Assembly (NCBI RefSeq): GCF_000426465.1
Contig: NZ_AUFK01000009.1
Location: 434,001 to 498,000 of the forward strand
Reading direction: 5' to 3'
Length of the DNA stretch: 64,000 bases
DNA from: Epilithonimonas caeni DSM 17710
Lineage (GTDB): Bacteria > Bacteroidota > Bacteroidia > Flavobacteriales > Weeksellaceae
Part shown: in pieces, positions 19,978 to 52,661 of the stretch
How the letters are laid out: the number at the start of each line of letters is the position of its first letter
How positions within the stretch are numbered: the stretch's first letter is position 1
Program-made: the position numbers and the translations under genes
Notes under the pieces: model-generated
Seen by the model: the letters and a program-made list of their open reading frames with translations, nothing else
Database searches by the model: none
What the model was told of the DNA's origin: nothing

Positions 19978-20019
19978 TTGATTAATTTTAATTGATGGAT
20001 TTACCATTCATTACGTTTT

Positions 20020-20065: not shown

Positions 20066-20148
20066 TTAAAAACATTAATTTAAACAGCGAATCTATCTCC
20101 ACTTTATTATTTTTTTTTTGAATCGATGAATCTCGTTCCTCGATTTCT

Positions 20149-20268: not shown

Positions 20269-20276
20269 AAATTATT

Positions 20277-21122: not shown

Positions 21123-21126
21123 ATTT

Positions 21127-21985: not shown

Positions 21986-22006
21986 TAAGTGTTAAAATTA
22001 CACTTA
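21986..22006. promoter_or_regulatory. AraR-type 21-bp palindrome upstream of fsa-tktN-tktC
   Basis: TAAGTGT-TAAAATT-ACACTTA, with perfectly complementary 7-nt arms; the most symmetrical copy of the series. On the minus strand it is followed by TAACTTTA, a weak match to TAnnTTTG, 12 nt beyond the box (15 nt at the four canonical promoters). Predicted site for the Nudix regulator at 33357. Confidence 0.65.
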
Positions 22007-32833: not shown

Positions 32834-32854
32834 TAAATGTTATTTCTACATTTC
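32834..32854. promoter_or_regulatory. AraR-type palindrome just upstream of the GH127 start codon
   Basis: TAAATGT-TATTTCT-ACATTTC; six of seven arm positions pair. It ends only 3 nt before the GH127 ATG, inside the expected 5' leader, so a bound protein could block elongation or the box could work as a secondary site. Unlike the canonical boxes, no TAnnTTTG element follows at the fixed spacing. Confidence 0.55.
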
Positions 32855-32986: not shown

Positions 32987-33030
32987 CAAACCATAGAATA
33001 TCAATTAAATAAATGTAATTTATACATTAT
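32987..33030 (-). promoter_or_regulatory. Promoter module of GH127: AraR-type box plus -7 element
   Basis: Box TAAATGT-AATTTAT-ACATTAT (33010-33030, plus-strand reading) followed on the minus strand by TATGGTTTG (32995-32987), a one-base-longer variant of TAnnTTTG. The TTTG stands at exactly the same distance from the box (23 nt) as at 44128, 46245 and 52618. Confidence 0.65.
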
Positions 33031-33277: not shown

Positions 33278-33342
33278 TAAAGTGTCTAACATACATTTAT
33301 TTATTTTTCATATTAGAATCTATTTCAAAACCTTTAACTTTG
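33278..33342 (+). promoter_or_regulatory. Promoter of araR with AraR-type box
   Basis: Box AAAGTGT-CTAACAT-ACATTTA (33279-33299) and, downstream on the plus strand, a perfect TAnnTTTG element TAACTTTG (33335-33342) only 14 nt before the araR ATG. The box is further from the -7 element than at the target promoters, which would suit autoregulation (inference). Confidence 0.55.
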
Positions 33343-33356
33343 TATAAAATCATTTT

Positions 33357-34046
33357 TTGATGGAAGAGAATTATCTTAATTATCCCAAACATCTTGTTGC
33401 AGTTGACTGCATTATTTTCGGTTTTGACGGAGAAAATCTGAAAATCCTTCTGGTACAAAGAAATTTCGAGCCTAAAAAAGGAGAATGGTCTCTGATGGGC
33501 GGGTTTGTTGATGATAAAGAAAGTTCTGACCAAGCCGCAAACCGTGTCCTGAATACATTGACCGGACTAGAAAACATCTACCTTGAGCAGCTGAATACCT
33601 ACACCGAAATCGACCGTGAGCCGACAGCCAGAATTATGTCGATTTCGTATTATGCTTTAATTAATATTCAGGATAATATCCAGATCAATGAAAAATACAG
33701 CGCTAAGTGGTTTGATCTGAAAAACAGTCCGGACCTTATTTTTGACCACAACGCAATGGTGAAAGATGCCGTTTTGAGATTGAGAAGAAGAGCTACGACA
33801 AGGCCAATCGGTTTTGAACTGCTGCCTGAAAAATTCACAATGAAAGACCTACAGAATCTTTACGAAGCTATTTTTGACGAAAAATACGACAAAAGAAATT
33901 TTACCAGCAAAATCAATGCTTTGGATGTATTGTTAAAAACCAGCGAAAAAGATATGAGCTCGTCTAAAAAAGGTTCTTTTCTGTACACTTTTGATGAAAA
34001 AAAATACAATAAGAAAATCGCGGAAGGGTTTATGTTCAAGATTTAA
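33357..34046 (+). CDS. araR: Nudix-like transcriptional regulator, AraR type (NrtR family, 229 aa)
   Basis: N-terminal Nudix fold (about 10-145) fused to a C-terminal winged helix (about 150-220, FELLPEKFTMKDLQNLYEAI). The Nudix box (48-71, GGFVDDKES ... NRVLNTLTGL) has lost the catalytic REUxEE glutamates, so it is a sensor rather than a hydrolase. NrtR-family proteins of this layout include AraR of gut Bacteroides, which responds to L-arabinose. The name is supported by its place between arabinose genes and by matching palindromes upstream of arabinose-related genes. Start at 33357 or the adjacent ATG 33360. It is the only plus-strand gene in the right part; its stop is 2 nt from the convergent DUF294 gene. 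Confidence 0.82.
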   Translation: MMEENYLNYPKHLVAVDCIIFGFDGENLKILLVQRNFEPKKGEWSLMGGFVDDKESSDQAANRVLNTLTGLENIYLEQLNTYTEIDREPTARIMSISYYALINIQDNIQINEKYSAKWFDLKNSPDLIFDHNAMVKDAVLRLRRRATTRPIGFELLPEKFTMKDLQNLYEAIFDEKYDKRNFTSKINALDVLLKTSEKDMSSSKKGSFLYTFDEKKYNKKIAEGFMFKI

Positions 34047-36680: not shown

Positions 36681-38408
36681 TTACCAAAATCTCACATAAA
36701 GTGCAGTGAGTAAAAGCAATGTCACGACAATTAAGACCAATGTTCTATTATCTACTTTGAACATTGTTGCATCAATAACAAAAGCTTTTGGATTGACTTT
36801 CGGTCCTGCAAGGCTGATGAAAATCATTACTACAATCGTAAAAAAGAATGACCATCCCATATTAATCAGAAACGGAATTTCGGTAATGGTATGAACTGTA
36901 CCATTTTCCAATTTCTCATACGTGAAAGCGGTGTATAACCAAGTTTCTTTCCCGAAAATATCCACTGCAAAGCTATTGAAGAAAATCGCCAGGACAAATC
37001 CTAAAATTACTCCAACCAAAGCTGCAGTTCCGGTCGTTCTTTTCCAGAACATTCCTAAAAGGAACATCGCAAATACCCCAGGGCTAATAAATCCTGTATA
37101 TTTCTGAATGAAGGTAAATCCTCCTTCACCACCAATTCCCAAAGCATCGGTCCAAGTAAATGCCAAAGCCACGAACATTGCTATGATAATTGCCCAACGT
37201 CCTGTTCTCACCATCTGAATTTCCGTAGCATCAGCTTTCAGGTATTTTTTGTAAATATCTAAAGTGAAAATAGTTGAAATACTATTTACCTTTCCTGCTA
37301 AAGACGCTACAATTGCGGCTGTTAAAGCGGCAACGGCAAGACCTTTAAGACCTGTAGGTAAAAAGCCTAAAATCGCAGAGTATGCACCATCTTTCACCCC
37401 GTTAAAGCCCGGTAAATGTCCCTTTGTGTATAATACATAAGCTGCAATTCCCGGAAGCATTACAATAATCGGCATAAATAATTTCAAGAATCCGGCGAAT
37501 AGAATTCCGGTTCTTGCTGTTTTCAAATCTGCTCCTAAAGCTCTTTGCGTGATGTATTGATTACAACCCCAATAATTCAGATTCACAATCCACTGGCCTG
37601 CGAAATACATTGCCAAGCCCGGTAAAACCACATATTTCTGAACGTCAAGATTTTCCGGCATTGCTAAAGTTGTCGTTGTCTTAACTGGTTTGTCAAGCAT
37701 TAATTTGAAATGTTGCGGTGCTTCATTCATCAATGTCTGAAAGCCTGCAAAAGCATTTCCTACGGCAGCTCCGTTGATTCGCTGGTCAACAATTTGCAGC
37801 GCCATATAAACCGTAGCAAAACCTCCGATAATTAAAACTGCTACCTGAATCACATCGGTGTAACCGATTACCTTCATCCCGCCCAAGCCAATCAGCAAAG
37901 CCATTAAAAGCAATCCTATCATAATAATATGCAAATTATCACCACCAAGCAGCGTATCAATCGCCAAGGCGCCTAAATAAAGAATTGAGGTAAGGTTTAC
38001 AATTACATATAAAAACAGCCAGAAAACAGCCATAATCAATGAAACAGATTTGTTGTAACGGGTTTCCAGAAACTGGGGCATCGTATAAATCTTGTTTTTA
38101 AGATAAATCGGAATGAACCAAATGGCAATAATGATGAGTGCAAGCGCAGCAATCCATTCGTAAGCAGCCACGGCTACCCCTACGAAAAACCCTTCGCCAC
38201 TCATCCCGATAAATTGTTCTGCCGAAATATTAGAAGCAATTAAACTGGCCCCGATTGCCCACCAAGTTAATGAGCCTTCTGCCAAAAAATAATCTTTGCT
38301 GCCTGAAGCCACGGATTTTTTCTTTCTGTAAATCCAAATTCCGTAAGACGCTACCACCACAAAATAAATAAGAAAAATGATGATATCAATAGTTGCTAAA
38401 TTTCCCAT
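36681..38408 (-). CDS. Sodium/sugar symporter, SSS family (575 aa)
   Basis: Inner-membrane Na+/solute symporter with about 14 TM helices, vSGLT-like: LAEGSLTWWAIGASLIASNISAEQFIGMSG at the N-terminus is typical of the sugar branch, and QWIVNLNYWGCNQYITQRAL of the core. A periplasmic insert (PVKTTTTLAMPENLD) is present. It lies 3 nt after the mutarotase in araB-araD-araA-galM order, so L-arabinose or a similar monosaccharide is the likely substrate (inference from context). Confidence 0.92.
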   Translation of the reverse strand: MGNLATIDIIIFLIYFVVVASYGIWIYRKKKSVASGSKDYFLAEGSLTWWAIGASLIASNISAEQFIGMSGEGFFVGVAVAAYEWIAALALIIIAIWFIPIYLKNKIYTMPQFLETRYNKSVSLIMAVFWLFLYVIVNLTSILYLGALAIDTLLGGDNLHIIMIGLLLMALLIGLGGMKVIGYTDVIQVAVLIIGGFATVYMALQIVDQRINGAAVGNAFAGFQTLMNEAPQHFKLMLDKPVKTTTTLAMPENLDVQKYVVLPGLAMYFAGQWIVNLNYWGCNQYITQRALGADLKTARTGILFAGFLKLFMPIIVMLPGIAAYVLYTKGHLPGFNGVKDGAYSAILGFLPTGLKGLAVAALTAAIVASLAGKVNSISTIFTLDIYKKYLKADATEIQMVRTGRWAIIIAMFVALAFTWTDALGIGGEGGFTFIQKYTGFISPGVFAMFLLGMFWKRTTGTAALVGVILGFVLAIFFNSFAVDIFGKETWLYTAFTYEKLENGTVHTITEIPFLINMGWSFFFTIVVMIFISLAGPKVNPKAFVIDATMFKVDNRTLVLIVVTLLLLTALYVRFW

Positions 38409-38411
38409 ACT

Positions 38412-39572
38412 TTATTTCTTAACTGAAAATTTATAAATTGTTTTCGACTGATATTTTTGTCCCGGCTTTAACTCTGTGGAAGGGAAAGAAGTCTGATTCG
38501 GAGAATCCGGGAAATGCTGAGTTTCTAAGCAAAAACCTGTTCGGAATTCATTTTTCCCTCCGGTTTTGGTATCAAATTTTCCATCAAGGAAATTTCCGGA
38601 ATAGAACTGAACACCCGGTTCATCGGTAAGTACTTCCATCACTCTACCCGATTCTGCGTGATAAACTTTTGCGATACTTCTTAATCCGCTGCCATTCAGA
38701 ATCCAGTTGTGGTCGTAGCCTTTTCCTTTTTTCAATTGGTCGTCATTTGAATTAATGTCTTTTCCGATAGGTTTTGAAACCGTGAAGTCAAACGGAGTTC
38801 CTTTCACCAATTTTTGCTCGCCAGTAGGAATTAACGTTTCATTCACCGATAAAAATTTATCTGCATTAATTTGCAATTCGTGATCAGTAATTGTTTTTGT
38901 GAAATTTCCGGAAAGATTGAAATATGAATGTTGCGTTAGATTCACAACAGTTGGTTTATCTGTTTCCGCTTCGTAAGAGATTTCCAGAGTGTTATCGTCA
39001 GTCAACGTGTAAAAAACAGTTGTTGTCAATTTTCCAGGATAACCTTCTTCTCCATCTGCACTTGTGTAGGTCAGCTTCAACGTTGGGAATTTTGCATCTT
39101 TTACAGGTTCAATATTCCAGAATTTAGTATGAAATCCTTCCTTTCCTCCGTGAAGACTGTTTGGACCGTCATTTTTGTCGATGTCATACGATTTGCCTTC
39201 CAATGTGAATTTGGCGTTGGCAATCCTGTTTCCGTAACGGCCAATCAATGCTCCAAAATAGTAAGGATTTCCGTTGAAATAATCTTCAGGTTTGGTAAAT
39301 CCTAAAACGACATCTTCGTATTTTCCGTTTTTATCGGGAGCGGTAAGTGAAGTGATAATTCCACCGAAGTTAATGACTTCCAGCTTCATCCCGTTTTTGT
39401 TGGTCAAAGTATATTTTTTGATGGAATCGCCTTTTGACGTGACTCCGTAATCTGAAACCTGTATGTTTTCCATTGTTTCCGGTTGAGTTTTTGATTGATT
39501 TTCTTTTTTATTGCACCCGAAAATACATAAAACGGCAAAAAGAATTATCAGGTTGATACTTGTTTTTCTCAT
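38412..39572 (-). CDS. Aldose 1-epimerase (mutarotase), lipoprotein (386 aa)
   Basis: Interconverts alpha and beta anomers of aldoses. Lipoprotein signal with lipobox IFGC (Cys20), so it is exported and membrane-anchored, unlike cytosolic GalM. Motifs: FGGIITSLTAPDKNG, GRYGNRIANAKF, SLHGG, catalytic His in TQHSYFNLSG and Glu in FCLETQHFPDSPN. Position in the arabinose operon between isomerase and symporter suggests it supplies the right arabinose anomer for uptake (inference). 20 nt after araA. Confidence 0.92.
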   Translation of the reverse strand: MRKTSINLIILFAVLCIFGCNKKENQSKTQPETMENIQVSDYGVTSKGDSIKKYTLTNKNGMKLEVINFGGIITSLTAPDKNGKYEDVVLGFTKPEDYFNGNPYYFGALIGRYGNRIANAKFTLEGKSYDIDKNDGPNSLHGGKEGFHTKFWNIEPVKDAKFPTLKLTYTSADGEEGYPGKLTTTVFYTLTDDNTLEISYEAETDKPTVVNLTQHSYFNLSGNFTKTITDHELQINADKFLSVNETLIPTGEQKLVKGTPFDFTVSKPIGKDINSNDDQLKKGKGYDHNWILNGSGLRSIAKVYHAESGRVMEVLTDEPGVQFYSGNFLDGKFDTKTGGKNEFRTGFCLETQHFPDSPNQTSFPSTELKPGQKYQSKTIYKFSVKK

Positions 39573-39592
39573 TTTTTAGAAGTTTTGCAAGT

Positions 39593-41089
39593 TTAACGAT
39601 AATATATTTCATTCCAGCGAAGCGTGTTCTTAAAATCACGGATTTTCGTATCTTCATCAATAACAAGCGATTCGATACCTGCAATCTCCGCAAAATCTTC
39701 CAATTGTTCTACGCTGATGTTCTCACTGTAACACGTGTGATGCGCTCCACCTGCCAAAATCCACGCTTCAGCTGCCGTGTACAGGTCAGGAAGCGGTTTC
39801 CAAAGGACTCTCGCAACAGGAAGTTTTGGCAATTCTTCGGTAATTTCCAACGCTTTTGTTTTGTTGATTAACAGTCTGAAATGATTTCCGAAATCCATCA
39901 AAGCTGCATTCAGAGAATCAATATTTCCTCTGGAATTGAACACGAGACGCACTGGGTCTGCTTTTCCACCAATTCCCAATGGATGAATTTCACAAGATGG
40001 TTTATCAACCGCCAAAACAGGGTCAACTTCCAGCATATGCGAACCTAAAATCGAAGGATTTGAAGGGTTTAAATGATAAGTATAATCTTCCATAAAGGCA
40101 TTTCCCCCTTCCAGACCTTGTCCCATTGTTTTCATTGCACGAACTAAAGCGGCAGTTTTCCAGTCGCCTTCTCCGGCAAATCCGTAACCTTTTTCCATTA
40201 ATCTCTGAACGGCAATTCCGGGAAGCTGCTCTAACCCATGAAGGTCTTCAAACGTGTCTGAAAAACCTTTGAAGTTTCCTTCTTTCATGAATTTTTCCAG
40301 TCCTAATTCTATTCTTGCAGCCACTTCCAAAGATTTTCTATTGGCTCCACCGGAAAGAAGAGATTCAGCCATTTTGTATGAGGCTTCGTATTCCTCCATC
40401 AAAGTTTTAATCTCACCATCGCCTATGGAATTGACAACACTCACCAAATCCCCGATTCCCCAAGTGTTGACAGAAAATCCGAATTTGGTTTCCGCTTCCA
40501 CTTTATCTCCGTCTGTAACCGCTACAAATCTCATATTATCTCCAAAACGGGCGAATTTTGCACCCTGCCAATCGTCCCATCCCGCTGCAACACGGCTCCA
40601 ATCACCTATTTGTTTCTGAACTCTTTCTTCCGCCCAATGTCCTACAACAACTTTTCTGTTTTTACGAAGACGGCTTACCATAAATCCAAATTCCCTGTCG
40701 CCGTGAGCAGCCTGATTCAGGTTCATAAAATCCATATCCATTGTAGACCACGGAATATCCTGGTTGAACTGTGTATGAAGATGCAGCATTGGTTTTTGTA
40801 AAGCAGTCAGCCCGCGAATCCACATTTTTGCAGGCGAAAAAGTGTGCATCCAGGTTACGATTCCGATACAATCTTTTGCGGAGTTGGCAGCTGTAAGCGT
40901 TTCAAAAATTTCTTCTGTAGTTTTTACCGTTGGCTTTAAAACAACTTTTACAGGAATTTCCGAAGATGCATTAAGTGCTTCTACGATTTTTGCTGAATGT
41001 TCTGCAACCTGGGCTAATGTTTCAGATCCGTATAAATGTTGGCTTCCAGTAATAAACCAGATTTCTTTTGTATTGAGAGATGTTAACAT
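39593..41089 (-). CDS. araA: L-arabinose isomerase AraA (498 aa)
   Basis: Converts L-arabinose to L-ribulose. Full-length family member starting [17 protein letters not shown]; conserved [50 protein letters not shown] and [10 protein letters not shown], the last two carrying metal-binding His residues. Cytoplasmic, Mn-dependent family. Third gene of the arabinose operon; the 5' region contains a five-unit ATTTTT tract and two family B repeats between araD and araA. Confidence 0.96.
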
Positions 41090-41122
41090 ATTTTATAAAT
41101 GATGATTTATAATTGATAATTG

Positions 41123-41154
41123 ATTTTTATTTTTATTTTTATTTTTATTTTTTT
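41123..41154. repeat. Hexanucleotide tandem tract (ATTTTT)5
   Basis: Five perfect ATTTTT units from 41123 followed by TT. It lies 34 nt upstream of the araA start codon and directly adjoins a family B repeat. Tracts like this can vary in length by slippage. Confidence 0.8.
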
Positions 41155-41199
41155 CCATAGGTTTAACCTACGGCTATTCATATTGAACCCTTCAGGTTC
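41155..41199 (+). repeat. Palindromic repeat family B, copy 4
   Basis: CCATAGGTTTAACCTACGGC, TATTCATATT, GAACCCTTCAGGTTC; one base change in the loop-proximal stem. Tandem with copy 5 in the araD-araA spacer. Confidence 0.85.
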
Positions 41200-41222
41200 T
41201 GTAGGATTTTGTACATTTTCCT

Positions 41223-41268
41223 CCATAGATTTACACCTACGGCTACTGATATTGAACCCTTCGGGTTC
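41223..41268 (+). repeat. Palindromic repeat family B, copy 5
   Basis: CCATAGATTTACACCTACGG, CTACTGATATT, GAACCCTTCGGGTTC. Ends 43 nt before the araD stop codon. Confidence 0.85.
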
Positions 41269-41310
41269 AGATTTTCAAACGCAGCTAAAAGCCTATTGTC
41301 ATAAGCTTTT

Positions 41311-42009
41311 TTACTGTCCGTAATAGGCATTTTTGCCGTGCTTTCTTTCGTAATGTTTTTTGATTAAGGAATCTTTTAAACGAGGTGCATCCGGATTAAT
41401 TTGTCTTGTGAGATACGCCATTTCAGCGATGGTCTCAAGAACTTTGCTGTTGTAAACGGCTTTGTCGGCATTTTTTCCCCACGTGAATGGTCCATGGTTT
41501 CCGATGAGCACCATTTCCACTTCTTCATAAGATAATTGCTTTTCTTTGAAACATTCCAAAATCTGGATTCCGGTGTTGTATTCGTAATTTCCTTCGATTA
41601 AATCATCCCGCATGGGCGGAGCACAAGGAATATCCTTCGTCAAATGGTCTGCGTGTGTCGTTCCGAAAATCGGAATATCCAGCTGTGCCTGTGCCCAAGC
41701 TACAGAATAAATGGCGTGCGTATGGGAAATCCCGCCAATATTTTCCCAATTCTTATAGAGATAAGCGTGGGTTTTGGTGTCGGAAGATGGTCTTAAATTT
41801 CCTTCGACCACGTTGGCATCGTAATCTAAAATTACAATGTCTTCAGGCTTTAAAATCTCGTAAGGAACACCGCTTGGTTTGATGGCAAAAATTCCTTTGT
41901 CACGGTCAACGGCACTTACATTTCCGAATGTGTATACGACCAGCTTCAATGCATCGAGCTGCATATTGGCTTCGTAACATTCTCTTTGTAGTTCTTTATA
42001 GATATTCAT
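41311..42009 (-). CDS. araD: L-ribulose-5-phosphate 4-epimerase AraD (232 aa)
   Basis: Class II aldolase-fold, zinc-dependent epimerase making D-xylulose 5-phosphate. Motifs: GNVSAVDRDKGIFAIKPSGV, zinc ligands in GISHTHAIYSVAWAQ, GTTHADHLTKDIPC, and LIGNHGPFTWG. The frame is open to 42060, but that extension reads into family B copy 6, and the ATG at 42009 (MNIYKELQRECYEAN) gives the normal family start, so 42009 is chosen. Second gene of the arabinose operon. Its product feeds the transketolase/transaldolase enzymes encoded at 19-22 kb. Confidence 0.95.
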   Translation of the reverse strand: MNIYKELQRECYEANMQLDALKLVVYTFGNVSAVDRDKGIFAIKPSGVPYEILKPEDIVILDYDANVVEGNLRPSSDTKTHAYLYKNWENIGGISHTHAIYSVAWAQAQLDIPIFGTTHADHLTKDIPCAPPMRDDLIEGNYEYNTGIQILECFKEKQLSYEEVEMVLIGNHGPFTWGKNADKAVYNSKVLETIAEMAYLTRQINPDAPRLKDSLIKKHYERKHGKNAYYGQ

Positions 42010-42047
42010 TTTATTTACATATTTGTTGAAAATCTTTCTTTTCAAAT

Positions 42048-42092
42048 CCATAGGTTTCACCTACGGTTATTCGTATTGAACCCTTCGGGTTC
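42048..42092 (+). repeat. Palindromic repeat family B, copy 6
   Basis: CCATAGGTTTCACCTACGGT, TATTCGTATT, GAACCCTTCGGGTTC. It is followed 4 nt later by family A copy 4, a composite spacer. Confidence 0.85.
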
Positions 42093-42270: not shown

Positions 42271-43968
42271 CTACAAACTATCAACTGTCGACTTTTTCTT
42301 TGATTTGATATTATTTTCGGTGAAATCTGCGAGAATCTGATACTGTTTCATAAACTCTGCATATTTTTCTACCTTTTCTTCCTGTGGGAAATACTCTGCC
42401 TCAAAATCGGAGCCCATTTTCTGGCTGGCTTCCTGAACAGTAGGATAAATTCTTGCTGCAACGGCTGCATACACAGCTGCGCCCAAAGCCGGGGCCTGGT
42501 CTGAGGCTGCAACGACAATCGGCATATTCAGTACATTAGCCAAAGTCTGCATAATGAAAGGTGATTTTCTGGCAACGCCTCCAATTCCTATTACCTTATT
42601 AATTTTAACGCCTTCCTCTTCGAAACGGTCGACAATTTTTTTAGCTCCAAAACAAATAGCATTCACCAACGCTTTGAAAATATGCGGTGCTTTTGTTCCC
42701 AAAGAAAGGTTACTAATAGCCATTTTTAGTTCCTGGTTCGCATCCGGCGTTCTGCGTCCGTTAATCCAGTCCAATGCAACCGGAACAACCTCCGAAAGTG
42801 AAATTTTTTCCGCTTCCAAAGTAAGATTGCGAATAAGATTGTTTTCTATTTCTTCTTTCAGCAAGTGTTTTTGATTTTCATCAATCACATTGGAATTCAT
42901 CAGAATATTGTGTGTAGGCCAGGTCAGAATGTCTTTGTACCAAGCCAGAACATCTCCAAATGCAGATTGCCCCGCTTCCAGCCCCATCAACCCAGGAATT
43001 ACAGAACCATCGACCTGCCCGCAAATTCCTTTTACAGTTTTGTCACCGATGACTTCGTAGGGAGCCACCATAATATCACAAGTTGAAGTTCCCATAATTC
43101 TGATGAGCGTATTTTCCTCGACTTTTGCTCCCACTGCTCCGGAATGGGCATCGAAAGTTCCTACAGCAATTACTGTTTTAGTCGTTAATCCTAATTTTGT
43201 CGCCCATTCCTGATTTAAATTTCCGGCAACTTCGTCTGAAGTATACGTTTTTTCATAAAGTCTGTCTCGGAGTGCTGACAATGACGGATCCAGCTGACCG
43301 AGAAAATCTTTGGAGGGAAGTCCATCCCACGATTCGTGCCACATTGCTTTGTGACCGGCTGCACAACGGCTTCTTTTAAAAGTTGCTAAATCCTGATTGT
43401 CGGAAAGTAAAAATGTGAGGTAATCGCAATGTTCCATCCAGCTGTAGGCCGCATCTTTAACATCTTCATCTTCTCTGCTGATATGGAGAATTTTTGCCCA
43501 AAACCATTCTGAGGAGTAAATTCCGCCTTCGAATCTGGTATAATCTTCGCCTCCCCAATTTCTTGCTAACTGATTGATTTCTTCGGCCTCATTTATTGAA
43601 GTATGGTCTTTCCATAACACCATCATTGCATTCGGATTTTCTGAAAATTGAGGCAAAAGCGATAATGCAATTCCTTCTTTATTCACAGGAAGTGGTGATG
43701 AACCCGTTGTATCAATACAAATGCTAACAATATTTTCGGGCGAAACTCCACTTTCTTTCACGACAGTTGAAATGGTTTTTTCCAACCCTTCGATGTGGTC
43801 GAGCGGATGTTGGCGGAATTGGTTTTTTTCTGGCTTGCAGAATTTTCCTTCTTTCCATCTTTGGTAATAACTTACGGAAGTCGCCAGTTCTGCCCCATTT
43901 TCTGTATCAATCAAAACAGCACGAACAGAATCTGTTCCGTAGTCTAAGCCGATAACATATTTTTTCAT
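42271..43968 (-). CDS. araB: Ribulokinase, FGGY family (565 aa)
   Basis: Phosphorylates L-ribulose to L-ribulose 5-phosphate. N-terminal GLDYGTDSVRAVLIDTENG (phosphate loop of the ASKHA fold), DTTGSSPLPV, GTFDAHSGAVGA, MGTSTCDI and the late GGVARKSPFIMQTLANVLN plus APALGAAVYAA. Length and internal motifs fit the ribulokinase branch rather than xylulokinase. First gene of araB-araD-araA-mutarotase-symporter. A canonical AraR-type promoter module lies 160-203 nt upstream. Confidence 0.94.
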   Translation of the reverse strand: MKKYVIGLDYGTDSVRAVLIDTENGAELATSVSYYQRWKEGKFCKPEKNQFRQHPLDHIEGLEKTISTVVKESGVSPENIVSICIDTTGSSPLPVNKEGIALSLLPQFSENPNAMMVLWKDHTSINEAEEINQLARNWGGEDYTRFEGGIYSSEWFWAKILHISREDEDVKDAAYSWMEHCDYLTFLLSDNQDLATFKRSRCAAGHKAMWHESWDGLPSKDFLGQLDPSLSALRDRLYEKTYTSDEVAGNLNQEWATKLGLTTKTVIAVGTFDAHSGAVGAKVEENTLIRIMGTSTCDIMVAPYEVIGDKTVKGICGQVDGSVIPGLMGLEAGQSAFGDVLAWYKDILTWPTHNILMNSNVIDENQKHLLKEEIENNLIRNLTLEAEKISLSEVVPVALDWINGRRTPDANQELKMAISNLSLGTKAPHIFKALVNAICFGAKKIVDRFEEEGVKINKVIGIGGVARKSPFIMQTLANVLNMPIVVAASDQAPALGAAVYAAVAARIYPTVQEASQKMGSDFEAEYFPQEEKVEKYAEFMKQYQILADFTENNIKSKKKSTVDSL

Positions 43969-44127: not shown

Positions 44128-44171
44128 CAAATATAAGATTCTATTTTAAATAAATGTAATATTTACACTTA
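44128..44171 (-). promoter_or_regulatory. Promoter module of araB operon: AraR-type box plus TATATTTG
   Basis: Box TAAATGT-AATATTT-ACACTTA (44151-44171) and, on the minus strand 15 nt beyond, the -7 element TATATTTG (44135-44128). The box covers the place of the -33 element. Near-identical 44-bp modules stand before GH51 and GH3. Confidence 0.75.
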
Positions 44172-44207
44172 ATTTTATTTTTTTATTTTCTTGACAGTAG
44201 TTTAAAG

Positions 44208-46190
44208 CTATTTTATTTTCAAAACAATGAGAGAATTTGCCGGAATTCCGACAGAAATCTTTCCATTTTTCAAGCTGTGGGTTTCCTCAATCGGCTTAAT
44301 AGTTTCTGTCTGGAAATTATTTTCATCTGAAAGTCCTGGAGAAGTCAATATAATTTTGGTGACATCATTGTTTAATTTGATATTTTTCGGATTAATTTCA
44401 ACTAAAGTTTCCAAAGGATTAGTATTGACAATTTTAATGATGGTTTCTCCTTTTTTGTTGTCACGAACTGCCGATGCATAGAGATTATTCTCGCCCTTCA
44501 ACGGTTTTCCGTTTTCGGAGATTTTAATTAAATCAGTTCCTTTATTGTTAGAAAATAATTTCTGAACATAATAATTTGGTGTTGCGTAAGATTTTAAATT
44601 ATTAAACCAAATCAAATCCGGAGTCCATTGCCACCCATCTGCATGGGCGAAAAGCGGCGCATAGGAAGTCATCGTCACGACATCTGCATTGCGCTCCAGT
44701 CCTGTCATAAAAGCAGCTTCCGAAAGTGCGGTAAGCCAATTGTTTTTATTGTCAGGTTTCACGACGCCAACTGATTGCGCGGCATATTCTCCGGCGAAAA
44801 CTTTAGGTCCGGAACGGTCATAATTATCATATCTTCCAGCATTTTTCAAAAACCATTCCGGGGAATTGTAGTAATGTTCGTCCACAATCTGAGCTTTGAG
44901 TTTTTTGAGCTCTTTCCATCCATAATCGAAAAATTCGCCATCAGGTGACGGTCCGCTTCCGGAAATGATTTTGATATCGGGATATTTAGCATGAATGGCT
45001 TTCTCAAAAACTTTGTAACGTTCGATGTAATCTGCGCCCCACTGTTCGTTTCCTACCCCGATGAATTTCATATTAAAAGGTTTTGGATGCCCCATTTCAA
45101 CACGAATTTTTCCCCATTTTGTATGAGCATCGCCATTGGCAAATTCAATTAAATCCAAAGCATCCTGAACATACGGGTCTAAATCTTCCATTTTCACAAG
45201 TTCCGCCGTATTGAATTGGCACGCCATTCCGCAACTTAAAATCGGAAGCGGTTCTGCGCCTAAATCTTCCGCTAACTGGAAATATTCGAAAAAGCCAAGC
45301 CCGAAAGACTGCCAGTAATCCGGCGTAAGACGATGCGAAAAACCGTTGTTCCATTTATTAATAAGATTTTCACGGTCTTCTGTTTTACCGACCGTTTTTT
45401 TCCACTGATAACGTTCTGCTAATGTTCTTCCTTCCACAATACAGCCACCCGGAAAACGTAAAAATCCTGGCTGCAAATCATATAATTTCTGAACTAAATC
45501 TTTTCTTAAACCACCTTTTCTTCCTTTCCATGTATCTTGTGGGAAAAGTGAGATCATATCCATATTTACAATGCCTTTTCCGGTAAAAGTAATTTGAAGC
45601 TTTGTTTTTTCAACAGTTTTGGCAGGTGCAAAAACAGCATTGTATTTTTGCCAGCCTCCACCTTTGATGATTGTAGAAACTGATGAAATCACTGTTCCGT
45701 TTTCATCAATCAAGCTTGTATTGATGGCAGAAATATTTCCTGAAACGTTTTCTAAATTAAAACTTAAGTCATATTTCTCACCTTGATGGAGACCAATCCC
45801 TCTGAATCCTTCATTTTCCAGCACATAGTTTTTGTCATTCCAAACGGTAATTCTTGCGTAATTTTTATTGGTTTTTGACCTATCCGTTATAATCGTCAGA
45901 AAACCTGAATCCAGATTGGGAGAAAGTGTTTTGGTGTTGGGCTGTTTCCAACCTGTTAAAGGTTCATCAAATTCGAAGCTGCGATTTTTAATCAATTCAG
46001 CATACAATCCGCCATCCGCTGCGAAGTTGATATCTTCAAAGAAAATTCCGTACATCGTTGACTGGATTTTGATGTTGGTAGAAGTTCCGTCTAAATCGAG
46101 GAAATGCTTTTGGACATTTCCGTTTTGCGCCGAAAAGAGTGCAACACTTAGTGAAATAGCCGCTGTGAATATTTTGGTGTTTATTTTCAT
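44208..46190 (-). CDS. GH51 alpha-L-arabinofuranosidase (660 aa)
   Basis: Removes alpha-L-arabinofuranosyl side groups. Signal peptide (FTAAISLSVALFSAQ). N-terminal CBM4-like jelly roll (about 60-215), then the TIM barrel with FLRFPGGCIVEG, acid/base Glu in IGVGNEQWGADY, DEHYYNSPEWF and nucleophile Glu in VFAGEYAAQ, and a C-terminal beta domain. Exported, probably periplasmic. Monocistronic, with its own AraR-type module 55-98 nt upstream. Its product, arabinose, is the substrate of the adjacent araBDA genes. Confidence 0.94.
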   Translation of the reverse strand: MKINTKIFTAAISLSVALFSAQNGNVQKHFLDLDGTSTNIKIQSTMYGIFFEDINFAADGGLYAELIKNRSFEFDEPLTGWKQPNTKTLSPNLDSGFLTIITDRSKTNKNYARITVWNDKNYVLENEGFRGIGLHQGEKYDLSFNLENVSGNISAINTSLIDENGTVISSVSTIIKGGGWQKYNAVFAPAKTVEKTKLQITFTGKGIVNMDMISLFPQDTWKGRKGGLRKDLVQKLYDLQPGFLRFPGGCIVEGRTLAERYQWKKTVGKTEDRENLINKWNNGFSHRLTPDYWQSFGLGFFEYFQLAEDLGAEPLPILSCGMACQFNTAELVKMEDLDPYVQDALDLIEFANGDAHTKWGKIRVEMGHPKPFNMKFIGVGNEQWGADYIERYKVFEKAIHAKYPDIKIISGSGPSPDGEFFDYGWKELKKLKAQIVDEHYYNSPEWFLKNAGRYDNYDRSGPKVFAGEYAAQSVGVVKPDNKNNWLTALSEAAFMTGLERNADVVTMTSYAPLFAHADGWQWTPDLIWFNNLKSYATPNYYVQKLFSNNKGTDLIKISENGKPLKGENNLYASAVRDNKKGETIIKIVNTNPLETLVEINPKNIKLNNDVTKIILTSPGLSDENNFQTETIKPIEETHSLKNGKISVGIPANSLIVLKIK

Positions 46191-46244
46191 TCCTGATATA
46201 TTATTTAAAAAGAAGTAATGATTTTACGCATGATAGAGTAATAA

Positions 46245-46288
46245 CAAATATAAGATTCTATTTTTAATAAATGTAAAATAAACACTTA
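46245..46288 (-). promoter_or_regulatory. Promoter module of GH51: AraR-type box plus TATATTTG
   Basis: Box TAAATGT-AAAATAA-ACACTTA (46268-46288) and -7 element TATATTTG on the minus strand (46252-46245), with AGAATCT in the spacer as at 44128 and 52618. It lies 55 nt upstream of the GH51 ATG. Confidence 0.75.
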
Positions 46289-46345
46289 TTTTAAATATTA
46301 CCGATATATTCTTAAATCTCACTTTTTATTATTTATAATCCTTAA

Positions 46346-46375
46346 AAAGCCATCACAGAAATCTATGATGGCTTT
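46346..46375 (-). terminator. Rho-independent terminator after GH30
   Basis: AAAGCCATCA (46346-46355) and TGATGGCTTT (46366-46375) form a 10-bp stem; on the minus strand the hairpin is followed by TTTTT. It lies 31 nt after the GH30 stop codon. Confidence 0.8.
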
Positions 46376-46406
46376 GGATGAAAAAATGTTAATGAAAAAA
46401 TTACTA

Positions 46407-49130
46407 TTACTGTTTGATGAACTTGTTGGTTTCCGTCTTTTGGGTATTCCCGGAAACTATATAATATACTCCAGCCGTAAGTTTGGAAACATCTATCCTA
46501 TTCTTACCCGATGTTAGTTTTCCTGTAAAGACCAAACTTCCTTTTGCATCAATGATCTTATATTCGGAATCCGAATTTTCAATTGTAACAAAGAGTTCCC
46601 CTTTTGCAGGATTCGGATAAATCTGTATTTTAGATCTAGCAATATCTCCAACGGCAAGCGTTTCAAATTCTAAAGGTAAAAGTGAAGCTGAATAGGCATT
46701 TTCTTCAGTGATATAAGCACTGAACGCCGGTACAGTCTCGTTTCCGCTTGCAATTTTGTAGAATCCGGCAGTCCCGCTCACAGTTTTAAGGACATAGCCT
46801 CCTGTATAAGCTTTTATCGTGCTGTAATCTGCATTGAACTGATTAGAAACAATCGCTTTCGGTGTAGAAACAGTACCCGATCCGGTGAATATAAACGTGC
46901 CGTTTCCGTTAACCAATACTGGTGTGTTTGCCGGAATTTTGCTATTGACAACCGCAGTACATAAAACCCTGGATGATGAAGGCTGCATATTATAAGCCTG
47001 CACACCATTTGGTACATTAGCCTCAAAAGGAAGTACGATCACTGCATATCCACTCAATGTTTTGGTATATGAAGCAGCAGTTGCCGTGAAAGTAAAAGGC
47101 GCATTAAAATCGCCACCCTGGTCGGATAGTTCCAATGATGCGGCAACAGTTCCTGAAACAACATTTGTATTGGCTGCTTTGGAAGAACTTGTACGGAATC
47201 CTGAACCGCTGCTGACATAAAATATACTGTTTGAATTGGCCATCTTGCTTTTCCAGTCAGCCGAAGTATTGATACCTGTCGTACTGGTGAAATCCAATGA
47301 GGTATAATAAGTATTTTCGTAAACATCCATCAGATTGCTGTCCCCATCCGAGTAAACGCCTGCAAACTTCATCGCTTTTTCATTTGAAATCCCAAAATAG
47401 ACATCTCCGAAATTGAATGTCAGAATAGAACTGAAATTACCATTTCTAAGTCCGATAATTCCTTTGCAACCCGTTGTAAGAACTGCCCTGGAAATATCAA
47501 ATACCAAATCGAAATTGGACGAGCCGGACGATGGCAAGTTAACTGTTCCATAATTATAGGACTTCACAACGCCAGCATTATCAACATAATATAAAGTCGT
47601 ATTGGATGAAGTTGCAAGATTGCTCGTCGTATAACTATTAACATGGAAAACCAGTTTGTTGTAACGATCATCTAAACTGATGTATCCATTAGCATCTGTC
47701 GTATTGGAACTGATCAACGGCGTCGAGTTGTACAACGTAGCTGTTTTACCACTTAATTGGTAAGATGTTCCGAATGCAGGATTGGTAACGGATTGGGTTT
47801 CAATTTTAGAGTAATTAATATCCTGTCCCGTCATATTGGAAACTTCTCTGACATTACTTTTATCAAAAACAAAAGTGATAAAGCTTGATGGATTGACCTG
47901 AATGGTCGGACGGAAAGTCTCTGTAAAATTCTGATTAGAAGAAACCATATTAGAGGTTTCGTTGGTCATGATCTTTTGTGCAGACGTAGTATAGAATGGC
48001 AGATCTACTTTCAGTGTATAAGTATTGGCCGATGAGTTGAAAACCATCAGTTTTATCTTATCACCGGAATCATTGATGTACGCAGATCCCTGCATCGATC
48101 CCTGGTCGCTCCAGATGGCATCCAGTCTTTTTGAGCCCGTGGTATATTTTGCAAAATGAGAAAGGATATAACCACGTTTGGTAATTTCGCCAGCCACAGT
48201 TCCGTACAGGCCATCGCCCATCATCCCATAATATCTTTTCGTCGCATAATGGATCCAGGCATTTCCTCCGCCTACCATAACATCATTGACGCTTTTTGCA
48301 AAGTCAAATGCATCGGTATTCCAAGAAAAATTTCTGGTGCCACCATTGGAATTCCAGTTGATCAGAAACTCTGTCATCCAGATTTCTTTGTTCGTGTTCA
48401 GGAAACCTTTGTATGTTGAGCCTATCCCACCATATTGATGTCCCGCATAGATCTCAAATTTCGGCAAAACATCTGTGGTAAGAAGTGCATTGGCATAATT
48501 GTTTGACATTCCGACGGTTTCCGGCACGATGATCCTGCAGGAAATAACGTCAGAATAATTCTTAAGAAAATTGGTGATCTGAGTCGGTGTGTAAGTACAT
48601 CCCGCATAAGTAACGACATAATCCGGTTCATTTTGCAGGGATATTGCGTATAATTCGACACCGTTATCTCTGAGATAAACCACGAATTCATTCAGATAAT
48701 TAGCAAAATCTGCATAATTTTCCTCTTTCAGAAATCCCTCTACCCCATTATAAGTTCCGGCATCATTACCATTGGTCTTCCATTCTGCGGGTGGCGACCA
48801 CGGACTTGCAAAAATAATCAGACCCAAAGATGCTGCTTTTTGTGCAGTGGCAAGAGCCGCGCTCCAATTCTCCTTGGTTGTAGGAATATAAAGCCGCATA
48901 ATGTTATATCCGGCATCGCTGTTGGCACCCCACATTTTTTCAATTTCTGCAGGCGTCATATGGTCGTAAGCAAACTGAGGACTACACACAAAACCTCCAA
49001 ATCCGGTAATTTTCTGCCTTGGTGTTGCATCGATACGGACTTTCGGAGTTTGAGCAATTAAATGAAATGTGGATAAAACAATTACAAAAAATGTGATTCT
49101 TCTAATAGATGTAGTAATAAATTTGTTCAT
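46407..49130 (-). CDS. GH30 family xylanase-like enzyme with T9SS sorting domain (907 aa)
   Basis: Signal peptide, then a GH30 catalytic domain (about 30-420): QKITGFGGFVCSPQFAYDHM, FASPWSPPAEWKTNG, acid/base Glu168 in SLQNEPD and nucleophile Glu254 in EIWMTEFLINW. The resemblance is to glucuronoxylan-directed GH30 enzymes. Residues about 430-820 form beta-rich modules of unassigned type. The last 75 residues are a type A sorting domain (IYPNPAKGELFV ... GVYYIVSGN ... KFIKQ), so the enzyme is exported by the type IX system to the surface or medium. Monocistronic, between two terminators. No AraR-type box was found upstream. Confidence 0.9.
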   Translation of the reverse strand: MNKFITTSIRRITFFVIVLSTFHLIAQTPKVRIDATPRQKITGFGGFVCSPQFAYDHMTPAEIEKMWGANSDAGYNIMRLYIPTTKENWSAALATAQKAASLGLIIFASPWSPPAEWKTNGNDAGTYNGVEGFLKEENYADFANYLNEFVVYLRDNGVELYAISLQNEPDYVVTYAGCTYTPTQITNFLKNYSDVISCRIIVPETVGMSNNYANALLTTDVLPKFEIYAGHQYGGIGSTYKGFLNTNKEIWMTEFLINWNSNGGTRNFSWNTDAFDFAKSVNDVMVGGGNAWIHYATKRYYGMMGDGLYGTVAGEITKRGYILSHFAKYTTGSKRLDAIWSDQGSMQGSAYINDSGDKIKLMVFNSSANTYTLKVDLPFYTTSAQKIMTNETSNMVSSNQNFTETFRPTIQVNPSSFITFVFDKSNVREVSNMTGQDINYSKIETQSVTNPAFGTSYQLSGKTATLYNSTPLISSNTTDANGYISLDDRYNKLVFHVNSYTTSNLATSSNTTLYYVDNAGVVKSYNYGTVNLPSSGSSNFDLVFDISRAVLTTGCKGIIGLRNGNFSSILTFNFGDVYFGISNEKAMKFAGVYSDGDSNLMDVYENTYYTSLDFTSTTGINTSADWKSKMANSNSIFYVSSGSGFRTSSSKAANTNVVSGTVAASLELSDQGGDFNAPFTFTATAASYTKTLSGYAVIVLPFEANVPNGVQAYNMQPSSSRVLCTAVVNSKIPANTPVLVNGNGTFIFTGSGTVSTPKAIVSNQFNADYSTIKAYTGGYVLKTVSGTAGFYKIASGNETVPAFSAYITEENAYSASLLPLEFETLAVGDIARSKIQIYPNPAKGELFVTIENSDSEYKIIDAKGSLVFTGKLTSGKNRIDVSKLTAGVYYIVSGNTQKTETNKFIKQ

Positions 49131-49917
49131 AACATAAGTTTTATTTTTAATGATTTTGAATTTTTAAAAGATCATCAGCAACTTCTCATTCTAAAAAACA
49201 CAATACAATAGCTGATGCAATTTGAACAAATGCATCCTTAACGAGATTTTAAAGATTTATTGAAGAGTTACAATTTAAAATCAGCCTTTTTAAAATCTAA
49301 CTAAAAACAAATAGCAGATTTTTTCAGTCTTAAAATTGCCATACTATTTAGAGAAGTAAATCGTTAGTTTCATATTAATTTTGAATTAGATATTATTATA
49401 ACCGAATATAATAAAAATACTCAATATTAAACCAATTAACATGAGAATAAATCAAATAAAATACCAATTTTAGATAAAATATACAATAATTAAACATCAT
49501 TGTTTCATGAATAGCTTATCATTGAATTAACAATTAGTTAACATTAAGATCTTTTGTTAAAGAAATTTTCCCGATATAAATATTATTATTGATAAACAAA
49601 AAATAATGATAATATATGATAAGGATTATACTATCATATTTGTAAAAATTATCTAAAAAATATATTATTTATAATAAATTAAATCTTTTTATATCACAAT
49701 TTCCAATTAATCTCTTACGAAAAAAGGCAGATGACCGTATCTAATTGTTATATATTGAAAAATATTTGATTTTTATCTTTGACTTCCTTTAGTAAAAATC
49801 AACTAAAAATTCAATCTGTAGAATCATATTCCAATTGATACATAAATAGAAAACCCTTCCATATTTAGAAGGGTAATCAGTTTTAGAATCGGCTAGATAT
49901 AAAGTAAATCCATTATT
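49131..49917. other. Long AT-rich intergenic region upstream of GH30
   Basis: 787 nt. Contains the GH3 terminator (49853-49874) and a small inverted repeat GATGCA-N11-TGCATC (49214-49236), 84 nt upstream of GH30. No credible frame and no listed repeat family. The remainder is very AT-rich with no structure I could support. Confidence 0.55.
49853..49874 (-). terminator. Rho-independent terminator after GH3
   Basis: ACCCTTC and GAAGGGT arms around CATATTTA; on the minus strand the stem is followed by TTTTC. It lies 44 nt beyond the GH3 stop codon. Confidence 0.65.
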
Positions 49918-52545
49918 TTATTTCACTTTTACCTGAAGGCTTTTCAATCCGGATTCATCGGAAGTTCCGCCGTAGAAGATGGTGTAATCTCCAGCTTTCG
50001 GAGTCAAGTCATCCTCTTTTTCATCATAAAATTTAAATGAATCTTTAGAAACATTTAATTGGATATTTTTTGTTTCCTTAGATTTAATCAAAACCCTTTC
50101 AAAGGCTCTCAAAGTCTTTACAGGAGCCAAAGAATCATTATTTCTTTTCACATAAACCTGAATCACTTCCTCACCGTCTCTTTCAGAATTATTGGTAACA
50201 GGAATTGTAATCGTAACATTTTCATTGGAATTGATGGTATTTTTGCTCAATTTGGCATTTCCGTAAGCAAATTTTGAATAACTCAACCCGTGGCCGAAAG
50301 CATACAACGGTTTTTCTGTCATATAACGGTAGGTTCTTCCCTGCATATCATAGTTTTCAAAACCCTGATGTTTGCTGGTTTTAGATAAATTATTGTCGAG
50401 CTGTTCCAGATTTTTGTAGAATGTAACCGGCAACCTTCCGGACGGATTGTAATCTCCCGCCAAAACATCTGCAACCGCAGTTCCTCCGGCTTGTCCGCCA
50501 TACCAAGCGTTCAGTAATGCATCATAATTTTTTTCATCCTTTTCCAAACCAAGCGAACTTCCTGTACAAAGCACAAAAACGACTGGTTTTCCTGTTTTTC
50601 TTAATTCAGCTAACAGTTCACGCTGAACTTTTGGAAGGTCGATGGAAGTTTTATCACCACCTTTGAAACCTTCTGCATTCACCATCATTTCTTCGCCTTC
50701 CAGACTTGGAGAAAGTCCGCCTGCAAAAATAATGACATCCGCATCTTTCACTTTTTCCCTTACGGCATCGAAGTTCACAGGGTCTTTTCTGTACACGTCA
50801 AAAGTGATGCTTACATATTTTCCTTTCTGACTATGACGCAATTCTATTTGATACTCTTTTCCTTTCTCCATTTTTATAGGAAATTCCGAAGGATGTCTTG
50901 CATCGGGGCCTTTTCTGGTGGCAATTTCTTTACCGTCAACGAAAAGTGTATAAACATCGGATGTTGAGGGTGAAAGAATCACATCGCCCGTATAAGGACT
51001 TTTGAAAACTCCGGAAATGATGGACGAAGTATTTTCTCTTTCCACGTTCGGAGCAAACTGAGTTCCGCCAAAACTGTTGTAGTTGATTCCTGTTTTATTG
51101 ACAGAAATATTCGCAGATTTCCCTTTGAATTCATTGTTGTTAAAAAACTCTACTTTCATTCCTTTCTCACCGCTTTTCTGGCTTAAAAAGTTTTGGTAAA
51201 GAGAGGTTCTGGAAGATGGGTCGGCGACTTCGGTTCCTTTCTCATAAATGATTTCTGCATTTGGAAATTTGGTTTTGATTCCGTCCAAGATCGTTACAAT
51301 GGAAGAAGGTGTTCCGTTATAATTTCCCAGCTGCATGAGTCCGTCATCGGCGTTTGGACCGACAACAGCAATCTTTTTGATATTTTTATTCAAAGGCAAA
51401 ACATTATTCTCATTTTTCATCAGAACAATAGATTTCTGAGCCATTTTTAAAGCCTGTTTTTTATGCTCATCAGAATCCACAACTGAATATGGAATGGAGT
51501 TCCAGTGAACGGAAGATTTTGGGTCGAGCATTCCCAACTCAAACCAACCTTTCAGAATTCTTTGCATAGAAATATCGAGGTCTTTCTCCGTGATTAATCC
51601 GCTTGCGAGAGATTTGTTTAAATTATTATACGTGTCGCCACACTCTAAATCTGTAGAATGTTTCAGGGCGTCTGCGGCGGTAGTTTTTTCGTCGGGATGT
51701 GTTCCGTGGTACTGTTTCTGGTAGAAATCTGCCAAAGCCCAGCAATCGGAAACGACCATTCCATCGTAGTTCCATTTTCCACGGAGAATTTCTGTCAGCA
51801 AAGTATTGTTGGCGCAGCACGGCTGTCCGTCGAATGCATTGTACGCACACATCACTTCCCTTACATTTCCTTCCAAAACCAATGCTTTGAAAGCCGGAAG
51901 ATAGGTTTCATACAAATCTCTTTTGGAAACTTCGGCGTTGTAAGAATGGCGGTTCCATTCCGGGCCGCTGTGAACGGCGAAATGTTTGGCACAGGCGTGG
52001 GTTTTGAAATATTTCGGGTCGTTTCCTTGCAAACCTTTTACCGCAGCAACGCCCAAAACAGAAGTCAGATACGGGTCTTCACCGTATGTTTCCTGACCCC
52101 TTCCCCATCTTGGGTCGCGGAAAATATTGATGTTTGGCGTCCAAAATGTAAGACCTTCGTAACGACCTGTTTTCTGAGATTCGTCAAAAGATTTATTGTA
52201 TTTTGCTCTGGCTTCATCAGAAATCATTTCAAAAGTTTTGAGATGCTCCGGAACGTCCCAGGTTGCCGCCATTCCGATGGCTTGAGGAAAAACCGTGGCT
52301 GTTCCTGCCCTTGCAACACCGTGAAGCGCCTCATTCCACCAACCGTAACCGGGAATATCCAATCTGGGAACTGCTTTAGAATTATCCATCATCATTCCGA
52401 TTTTTTCATCAACCGTCAATAAACCGAGAAGATTGTCGATTCTCTGCTCGACCGGAAGCTTTGGGTCTTGGAACGGATATTTATGATTCTGTGCGGATGA
52501 GAAGGCGCAGATGAAGACTGATAAGGAAAACAGGACTTTTTTCAT
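49918..52545 (-). CDS. GH3 beta-xylosidase/beta-glucosidase-like enzyme with PA14 insert (875 aa)
   Basis: Exo-acting glycosidase. Signal peptide (FSLSVFICAFSSAQ). N-terminal TIM barrel with MMDNSKAVPRLDIPGYGWWNEALHG, FWTPNINIFRDPRWGRGQETYGEDP, KHFAVHSGPE and nucleophile Asp in MVVSDCWALADF. A PA14 domain (about 440-580) interrupts the alpha/beta sandwich, which resumes with IIFAGGLSPSLEGEEM. C-terminal fibronectin III-like domain. Xylan-cluster members with WWNEALHGV are often beta-xylosidases. A canonical AraR-type module lies upstream. Periplasmic. Confidence 0.93.
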   Translation of the reverse strand: MKKVLFSLSVFICAFSSAQNHKYPFQDPKLPVEQRIDNLLGLLTVDEKIGMMMDNSKAVPRLDIPGYGWWNEALHGVARAGTATVFPQAIGMAATWDVPEHLKTFEMISDEARAKYNKSFDESQKTGRYEGLTFWTPNINIFRDPRWGRGQETYGEDPYLTSVLGVAAVKGLQGNDPKYFKTHACAKHFAVHSGPEWNRHSYNAEVSKRDLYETYLPAFKALVLEGNVREVMCAYNAFDGQPCCANNTLLTEILRGKWNYDGMVVSDCWALADFYQKQYHGTHPDEKTTAADALKHSTDLECGDTYNNLNKSLASGLITEKDLDISMQRILKGWFELGMLDPKSSVHWNSIPYSVVDSDEHKKQALKMAQKSIVLMKNENNVLPLNKNIKKIAVVGPNADDGLMQLGNYNGTPSSIVTILDGIKTKFPNAEIIYEKGTEVADPSSRTSLYQNFLSQKSGEKGMKVEFFNNNEFKGKSANISVNKTGINYNSFGGTQFAPNVERENTSSIISGVFKSPYTGDVILSPSTSDVYTLFVDGKEIATRKGPDARHPSEFPIKMEKGKEYQIELRHSQKGKYVSITFDVYRKDPVNFDAVREKVKDADVIIFAGGLSPSLEGEEMMVNAEGFKGGDKTSIDLPKVQRELLAELRKTGKPVVFVLCTGSSLGLEKDEKNYDALLNAWYGGQAGGTAVADVLAGDYNPSGRLPVTFYKNLEQLDNNLSKTSKHQGFENYDMQGRTYRYMTEKPLYAFGHGLSYSKFAYGNAKLSKNTINSNENVTITIPVTNNSERDGEEVIQVYVKRNNDSLAPVKTLRAFERVLIKSKETKNIQLNVSKDSFKFYDEKEDDLTPKAGDYTIFYGGTSDESGLKSLQVKVK

Positions 52546-52617
52546 TAGATTTTATTTAAAATATCACTTGAATATCAAATTGATTCTAGAAATTGAAATT
52601 CGATATCCGATTGATAA

Positions 52618-52661
52618 CAAATATAAGATTCTATTTTTAATAAATGTATTATTAACACTTA
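52618..52661 (-). promoter_or_regulatory. Promoter module of GH3: AraR-type box plus TATATTTG
   Basis: Box TAAATGT-ATTATTA-ACACTTA (52641-52661) and minus-strand TATATTTG (52625-52618). The intervening sequence and the stretch after the -7 element match the GH51 module almost base for base. Confidence 0.75.

Follow-up and report, generated by a model that had tools for sequence, protein, structure and literature searches.

A predicted AraR-type arabinose regulon with a clade-specific promoter-operator layout in Weeksellaceae

The window, the whole 64,000-nt stretch of Epilithonimonas caeni DSM 17710 DNA that was analysed, contains three promoters, those of araB, a GH51 gene and a GH3 gene, in which a 21-bp palindromic box stands at one fixed distance from the -7 element. 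These and related boxes are probably the operators of a linked AraR-type repressor of the Nudix/NrtR family that is released by L-arabinose, a reading to which we assign a probability of roughly 0.78. It is based on the boxes, their geometry and conservation, the co-occurrence of AraR, and the conservation of residues in the regulator. Collectively, comparison of the sequences indicates that the regulon is genuine, of AraR type and well conserved in Weeksellaceae, and that its promoter-operator layout is specific to this clade. The kind of system was already known; what is new is the clade-specific cassette and a Weeksellaceae AraR regulon that would reach transaldolase and transketolase.

Boxes were scored against the pattern TAArTGT-N7-ACAyTTA, which has 14 fixed positions in 21 bp. 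The three modules and the genes around them are as follows:

44128..44171, minus strand: araB module, with box at 44151-44171 (14/14), 15-nt spacer and TATATTTG at 44128-44135
46245..46288, minus strand: GH51 module, with box at 46268-46288 (14/14) and TATATTTG at 46245-46252
52618..52661, minus strand: GH3 module, with box at 52641-52661 (14/14) and TATATTTG at 52618-52625
42271..43968, minus strand: araB (FGGY kinase), first gene of araB-araD-araA-galM-SSF
36681..42060, minus strand: araD (41311-42060), araA (39593-41089), galM (38412-39572) and SSF transporter gene (36681-38408)
44208..46190, minus strand: GH51-type alpha-L-arabinofuranosidase
46407..49130, minus strand: GH30-like protein with T9SS sorting domain, between GH3 and GH51
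49918..52545, minus strand: GH3 glycosidase

Read on the minus strand, each module consists of TAAGTGT-N7-ACATTTA, 15 nt ending in AGAATCT, and TATATTTG, with 23 nt from the end of the box to the last G of TATATTTG (the 15-nt spacer plus 8). The original prediction had placed AraR-type boxes in fixed geometry at these genes, and the 14/14 boxes and the 23-nt distance in all three bear it out; its shared spacer AGAATCT was likewise recovered, with AGAATCTTATATTTG present in each module. Exactly three copies of AGAATCTTATATTTG occur in the whole genome, all at these modules, plus two matches with one mismatch. The TAnnTTTG -7 element of Bacteroidota sigma-A promoters is present in the three modules and in the araR promoter; in flavobacteria it has been mapped at -12 to -5 (PMC6847099; same position in PMC9723704). 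No -33 element was seen in the three modules, and the loci in hand yielded 42 putative promoters free of boxes, too few to place one. Promoters of F. johnsoniae are described in the available text of PMC6847099 as lacking a clear -33 element and having AT-rich zones at -18 and -28 only, and the earlier statement that the box takes the place of the -33 element was therefore too strong.

The window contains four 14/14 boxes against 0.004 expected (1000 dinucleotide shuffles, maximum 1), and shuffling of the 14 intergenic stretches that hold all four perfect boxes gave 0 in 2000 shuffles. The claim that an invariant offset in four unrelated genes cannot be chance thus stands for the boxes, which lie beyond chance, and falls for a module at GH127 and for the independence of the genes. 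The whole genome (4.11 Mb) has no perfect box besides these four. Five boxes carry one mismatch, two of them in the window and three outside. Of the three outside, one lies 5' of a GH10 gene, and the other two fall in reading frames that stay open across their entire 3-kb loci. At two mismatches a reversed control pattern was commoner than the box (146 versus 105 in the whole genome), and such matches were therefore treated as chance. Because a one-mismatch box precedes the off-window GH10 gene, the regulon probably extends past the window. This box, on contig C3 (L007 1501-1521; G000:C3:386632-386652), ends 40 nt before the GH10 start and is followed after 11 nt by TATATTTA (not TTTG); the gene lies far from the window and is a candidate regulon member.

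The putative regulator is divergently placed beside GH127, in a region with the following features:

33360..34043, plus strand: araR, 228-aa Nudix and NrtR/AraR winged-helix regulator (PF00293, PF21906, PF19368)
33279..33299, plus strand: araR promoter box AAAGTGT-N7-ACATTTA (13/14), with TAACTTTG 35 nt further on at 33335-33342
33010..33030, minus strand: GH127 box of the original prediction (12/14), not conserved
32834..32854, minus strand: AraR-like box at the GH127 start codon, GAAATGT-N7-ACATTTA (13/14), ending 3 nt before the ATG
30455..32830, minus strand: GH127 beta-L-arabinofuranosidase

The AraR protein has NUDIX, NrtR_WHD and AraR_C domains, all three Pfam models scoring over cut-off, and is identical to Bacteroides thetaiotaomicron AraR (BtAraR, PDB 5bs6) at 105/214 positions (49%). 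The three residues that hydrogen-bond L-arabinose (R34, R86 and H131) are all conserved, as are the other ligand residues Y5, F36, G47-G48-F49 and F129, with V92 changed to I. The core DNA contacts K179, R180 and N181 are kept, and of the base-contacting residues 4/6 are kept, K184 being S and R205 being K. These six residues are reported in the available text of PMC4666351 to be fully conserved in AraR orthologues of the phylum; because the orthologues named there are from Bacteroides and Prevotella, the full set was not taken as defining. The Nudix signature is impaired (GFVDDKESSDQAANRVLNTLTGL), with the three glutamates of REUXEE lost, and the 21-bp operator GTGT-N7-ACAy is present upstream of the ara genes.

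Besides AraR, the genome encodes three NrtR-type proteins, with 36-39% identity to the window AraR. The gene for one of them (C1:532247; 36%) adjoins FGGY kinase and xylose-isomerase-like genes and is preceded by AAAGTGTGTTTTTTACACTTT. Because this xylose-linked paralogue has a similar box, AAAGTGT-N7-ACACTTT, cross-binding is possible. The sequence AAAGTGTAAAAAACACACTTT 5' of the paralogue (L070 9214; G000:C1:533213) is a possible XylR-type box, closely resembling the AraR box.

Conservation in the araR-GH127 region was examined in an alignment of 42 of 43 candidates (the window and L016-L057; one was dropped for N runs or shortness, and L058-L065 stood outside it). The araR box scored at least 12/14 in 42/42 aligned sequences, and the GH127 start-codon box at least 13/14 in 39/42. 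The GH127 site of the original prediction (32987-33030) scored 12 in 2 of the 42 sequences, window included, 11 in 9, and 10 or less in 31. Downstream of it stands TATGGTTTG, in which TA and TTTG are three bases apart, the second and third of these being G; in the available text of PMC6847099, F. johnsoniae -7 elements practically never show two G's there. The element thus departs from TAnnTTTG, and the proposed fourth module is weak, with a 12/14 box and TA-N3-TTTG that relatives have not kept. Three other boxes had been overlooked, at 21986 (14/14), 33279 (13/14, araR) and 32834 (13/14, GH127 start). The distance from the araR box to the -7 element, counted with T also accepted as second base of that element, was 25-27 nt in 21/44 loci, 33-37 nt in 22/44 and 17 nt in one. 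Strict 10-bp phasing of the araR boxes was absent; they form two groups about 10 bp apart, each spread over several bases.

A separate motif, CTTATCRTA, occurs twice between araR and GH127 (32963 and 33081), both copies being in the 90% consensus of the 42 aligned sequences, and TATGATAAG upstream of GH30 (window 49615) relates to it. Its only perfect palindromic copy in the genome, TTATGATAAGCTTATCATAA, lies beside the xylose-linked genes (L070 9059-9078). This motif may be the site of another sugar regulator.

The fourth perfect box of the window precedes transaldolase and transketolase genes:

21986..22006, minus strand: perfect box (14/14) 5' of transaldolase/transketolase, 205 nt before the ATG
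19024..21780, minus strand: transaldolase gene tal (21127-21780) and split transketolase (20277-21122 and 19024-20007)

Among the 13 relatives' loci with an identified tal gene, 12 have a 14/14 box upstream of it. The box lies 17-34 nt before the ATG in 11/13 and 194 nt before it in one; the remaining locus has no box. Part of the 205-nt distance in the window is taken up by an inverted repeat of some 60 nt (21870-21935) between box and tal. In 7/20 loci no tal was found; a 13-14/14 box stands some 1.8 kb past GH67 in five of these and is absent from two. Judged by these positions, the box at 21986 probably belongs to the transaldolase/transketolase genes. The tal boxes are symmetric, GTGT-N7-ACAC, in 11/12. 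Transketolase is encoded here as two genes, for the N-terminal and C-terminal halves, adjoining transaldolase (19024-21122).

Intergenic repeats of the GTCATTCC..GGAATGAC and CTTCGACAAGCTCAGG types occur at window positions 21870-21935, 44009-44088 and 52749-52783; at tal and araB they separate the operator from the gene, and one precedes the GH3 module. CTC..GAG letters in some species had hinted at a 5'-terminal hairpin in the araB transcript, but this was not general.

The family was then covered by a scan of 197 genomes for RTGT-N7-ACAYTTA followed by TAnnTTTG within 5-35 nt, which gave 131 matches in 56 genomes. The offset was 15 nt in 69 matches (41 genomes), 14 nt in 7, 25 nt in 18 and 35 nt in 9, the rest being scattered. 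Of the 25-nt matches, 15 come from genomes with AraR, and in 13 of these the end resembles that of an araR promoter. Orthologues of AraR (E up to 1e-60) were detected in 40/197 genomes, from three genera, and all 40 have the 15-nt module. Among the 157 genomes lacking AraR, one holds a 15-nt module, inside a frame of 176 open codons. The hypergeometric probability of this co-occurrence is 4e-41, a figure that ignores common descent. Together with the 49% identity to BtAraR, the presence of the module in 40/40 AraR genomes makes the Nudix protein that had been proposed as binder (placed at 33357) the likely one, and the proposed pentose regulon is supported.

Among the loci in hand, distinct module-plus-leader strings were labelled araB in 40 cases, GH3 in 20 and GH51 in 2, a label requiring a gene at least 60% identical to that of the window within 420 nt. 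Outside this tally fall genes of GH30 type, where in three genomes the module stands 430-443 nt ahead of a 55%-identical match, and a 648-aa gene with a module in L055 and L057. The araB modules of relatives have 15 nt, some of them 14. The GH3/GH51 clusters were compared in 20 stretches from 12 genomes chosen from the 56 with matches, and a further set of 17 genomes was chosen likewise.

Outside the family, 34 AraR loci were covered (27 from a class search and 7 named). The 15-nt geometry was found in 0/34, and for this reason the cassette looks clade-specific. A relaxed box lay near the matched gene in 19/34 and was absent there in 15/34, counts to be read with the class-search loci being at most 3.7 kb and distant ara promoters partly beyond their ends. 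In 4/34 the box ends about 17-32 nt upstream of the araB match. The titles and abstract openings surveyed contained neither a Nudix-type AraR nor the 15-nt geometry in Flavobacteriia; the 2008 NrtR family paper may mention them.

Constraint within the module was measured on 45 distinct offset-15 strings, the open-frame match among them. Mean information was 1.99 bits per position in the box arms and 1.96 in the -7 element, both largely fixed by the search pattern, 1.50 in the spacer and 0.88 in the seven-base box centre. The tenth spacer base is G in 40/45 strings. The inner arm is ACATTTA in 45/45, though the pattern also allowed ACACTTA; set against the symmetric tal boxes, this uniformity suggests a promoter constraint.

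In the proposed mechanism, an AraR dimer would cover the 21-bp box when L-arabinose is absent and keep RNA polymerase off. If the -7 element corresponds to -12 to -5, the box would lie at about -48 to -28 in the araB, GH3 and GH51 promoters. L-arabinose in the Nudix pocket would release AraR, and release would open the arabinose operon, the arabinoside hydrolase genes, araR itself and probably transaldolase/transketolase. At GH127 and tal, where the box closely precedes the start codon, a dimer bound there should act as a block. The 15-nt offset would most likely be set by the promoter, the inner half of the box doubling as an AT-rich upstream promoter part. From sequence we infer binding by the window protein, L-arabinose as signal, repression and the start sites. 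BtAraR binds a fragment with AAAGTGT-N7-ACACTTA (BT0365) and, as a dimer in the crystal, GTGT-N7-ACAC, and its binding is abolished by 0.5 mM L-arabinose (PMC4666351, available text). Repression is favoured over activation because boxes adjoin the start codons at GH127 and tal, and also lie near the araB match in the four outside loci.

Some features speak against a simple blocker: the rigid offset and conserved 15-nt spacer exceed the needs of plain blocking, and the araR boxes at 25-27 or 33-37 nt from the -7 element in 43/44 loci also count against it. Counting against repression more broadly are the two of six BtAraR DNA contacts that are changed (K184 to S, R205 to K), the 15/34 outside loci with no box near the matched gene, possible cross-binding by the xylose-linked paralogue, and the one of 13 tal loci without a box. 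There is a small but real chance that the 44-bp module is a composite cassette, with operator, regulon-specific spacer element and -7 element as one unit and AraR acting on the bound RNA polymerase itself, which it would hold or position and not merely exclude. The same modest odds apply to the spacer, TTwAAAATAGAATCT, being the site of a second regulon-specific factor or of an unusual sigma contact, the module then comprising the sites of two proteins. The excess of spacer over box-centre information, the G at the tenth base and the restriction of AGAATCTTATATTTG to the three modules of the genome speak for such a site; no candidate factor was found, however, some araB modules have AAAAATT instead, which argues that the spacer is not essential, and shared descent of the modules and AT-richness explain part of the conservation. 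Activation by AraR, either generally or at the araB, GH3 and GH51 modules only, by recruitment of RNA polymerase from a fixed distance, is unlikely. It would account for the invariant offset (15 nt in 69/131), and the two groups of araR boxes about one helical turn apart (21/44 and 22/44, with one at 17 nt) and the lack of a TTG ahead of the -7 element in all three modules are in its favour. However, BtAraR loses DNA with L-arabinose, the wrong sign for an inducer-dependent activator (PMC4666351, available text), and boxes at start codons would be unable to activate in the usual way. The araR offsets are spread over several bases instead of falling in sharp 10-bp steps, and none of the 19/34 outside loci with a box near the matched gene has it at 15 nt.

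Recent duplication of one promoter to three genes is an improbable explanation of the similarity as a whole, although it fits GH51. The GH51 module of this genome is most like that of GH3, with which it shares TTAAAAATAGAATCTTATATTTGTTAT, and among labelled loci GH51 has its own module only here (G000) and in a near relative (G006). In these two genomes GH3 and GH51 have a GH30 gene between them; the other 11/12 fetched clusters have the two side by side, without a separate module for GH51. The GH51 module would most simply be a local copy of that of GH3, made when GH30 came in. Several findings go against duplication as the general cause: every one of the 40 AraR genomes, which span three genera, has the module, it stands at araB and GH3 alike where the genes are labelled, box centres have drifted, and similarity stops near the module edges. 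Duplication is therefore unlikely for araB and GH3 and stands as the probable origin of the GH51 copy. It is very improbable that the xylose-linked paralogue, and not the 33360 protein, is the main binder: its adjoining kinase and isomerase-like genes and its upstream AAAGTGTGTTTTTTACACTTT lend this some appeal, but it is only 36% identical to the window AraR, and AraR and module co-occur in 40/40 genomes.

The predicted AraR repressor has its closest known counterpart in BtAraR (BT0354) and its Bacteroides/Prevotella regulon, with which it shares the Nudix-like sensor and NrtR winged helix, 49% identity, the ligand residues, the 21-bp GTGT-N7-ACAy operator, and the arabinose operon and GH51 targets (PMC4666351, available text). 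For BtAraR, boxes stand in tandem ahead of the arabinose operon, separated by 3 or 42 bp, whereas the Flavobacteriia studied here have single boxes 15 nt from TAnnTTTG, and two of its six DNA contacts differ in the window protein. The predicted window targets GH127, GH3 and transaldolase are not named in the available part of PMC4666351, and no target named for the window is SusC/SusD. XylR (BT0791) is also of the NrtR family (PMC4666351, available text), and a similar box stands here beside the xylose-linked paralogue; the window protein is probably set apart from it, being closest to AraR among the sequences compared and linked to ara genes. Canonical NrtR (Shewanella, PDB 3gz5) shares the Nudix and winged-helix parts and an impaired Nudix signature (PMC4666351, available text), but it is associated with NAD genes and not with pentose genes, and it scored 85 bits in a PDB search versus 224 for AraR. 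Bacillus subtilis AraR (GntR/LacI type) has the name, sugar and repressor logic in common and belongs to an unrelated protein family (PMC4666351, available text).

The AraR regulon, described for Bacteroides and Prevotella (PMC4666351, available text), is thus carried into the Chryseobacterium group and linked to transaldolase and transketolase. As a naturally repeated, tight promoter-operator, the module could be of use in Flavobacteriia as a tool for arabinose-controlled expression. The spacer is kept more strongly than the adjoining operator centre, which bears on how promoters are recognised in a phylum with a poorly defined upstream promoter element, and why it is kept is a point of some interest.
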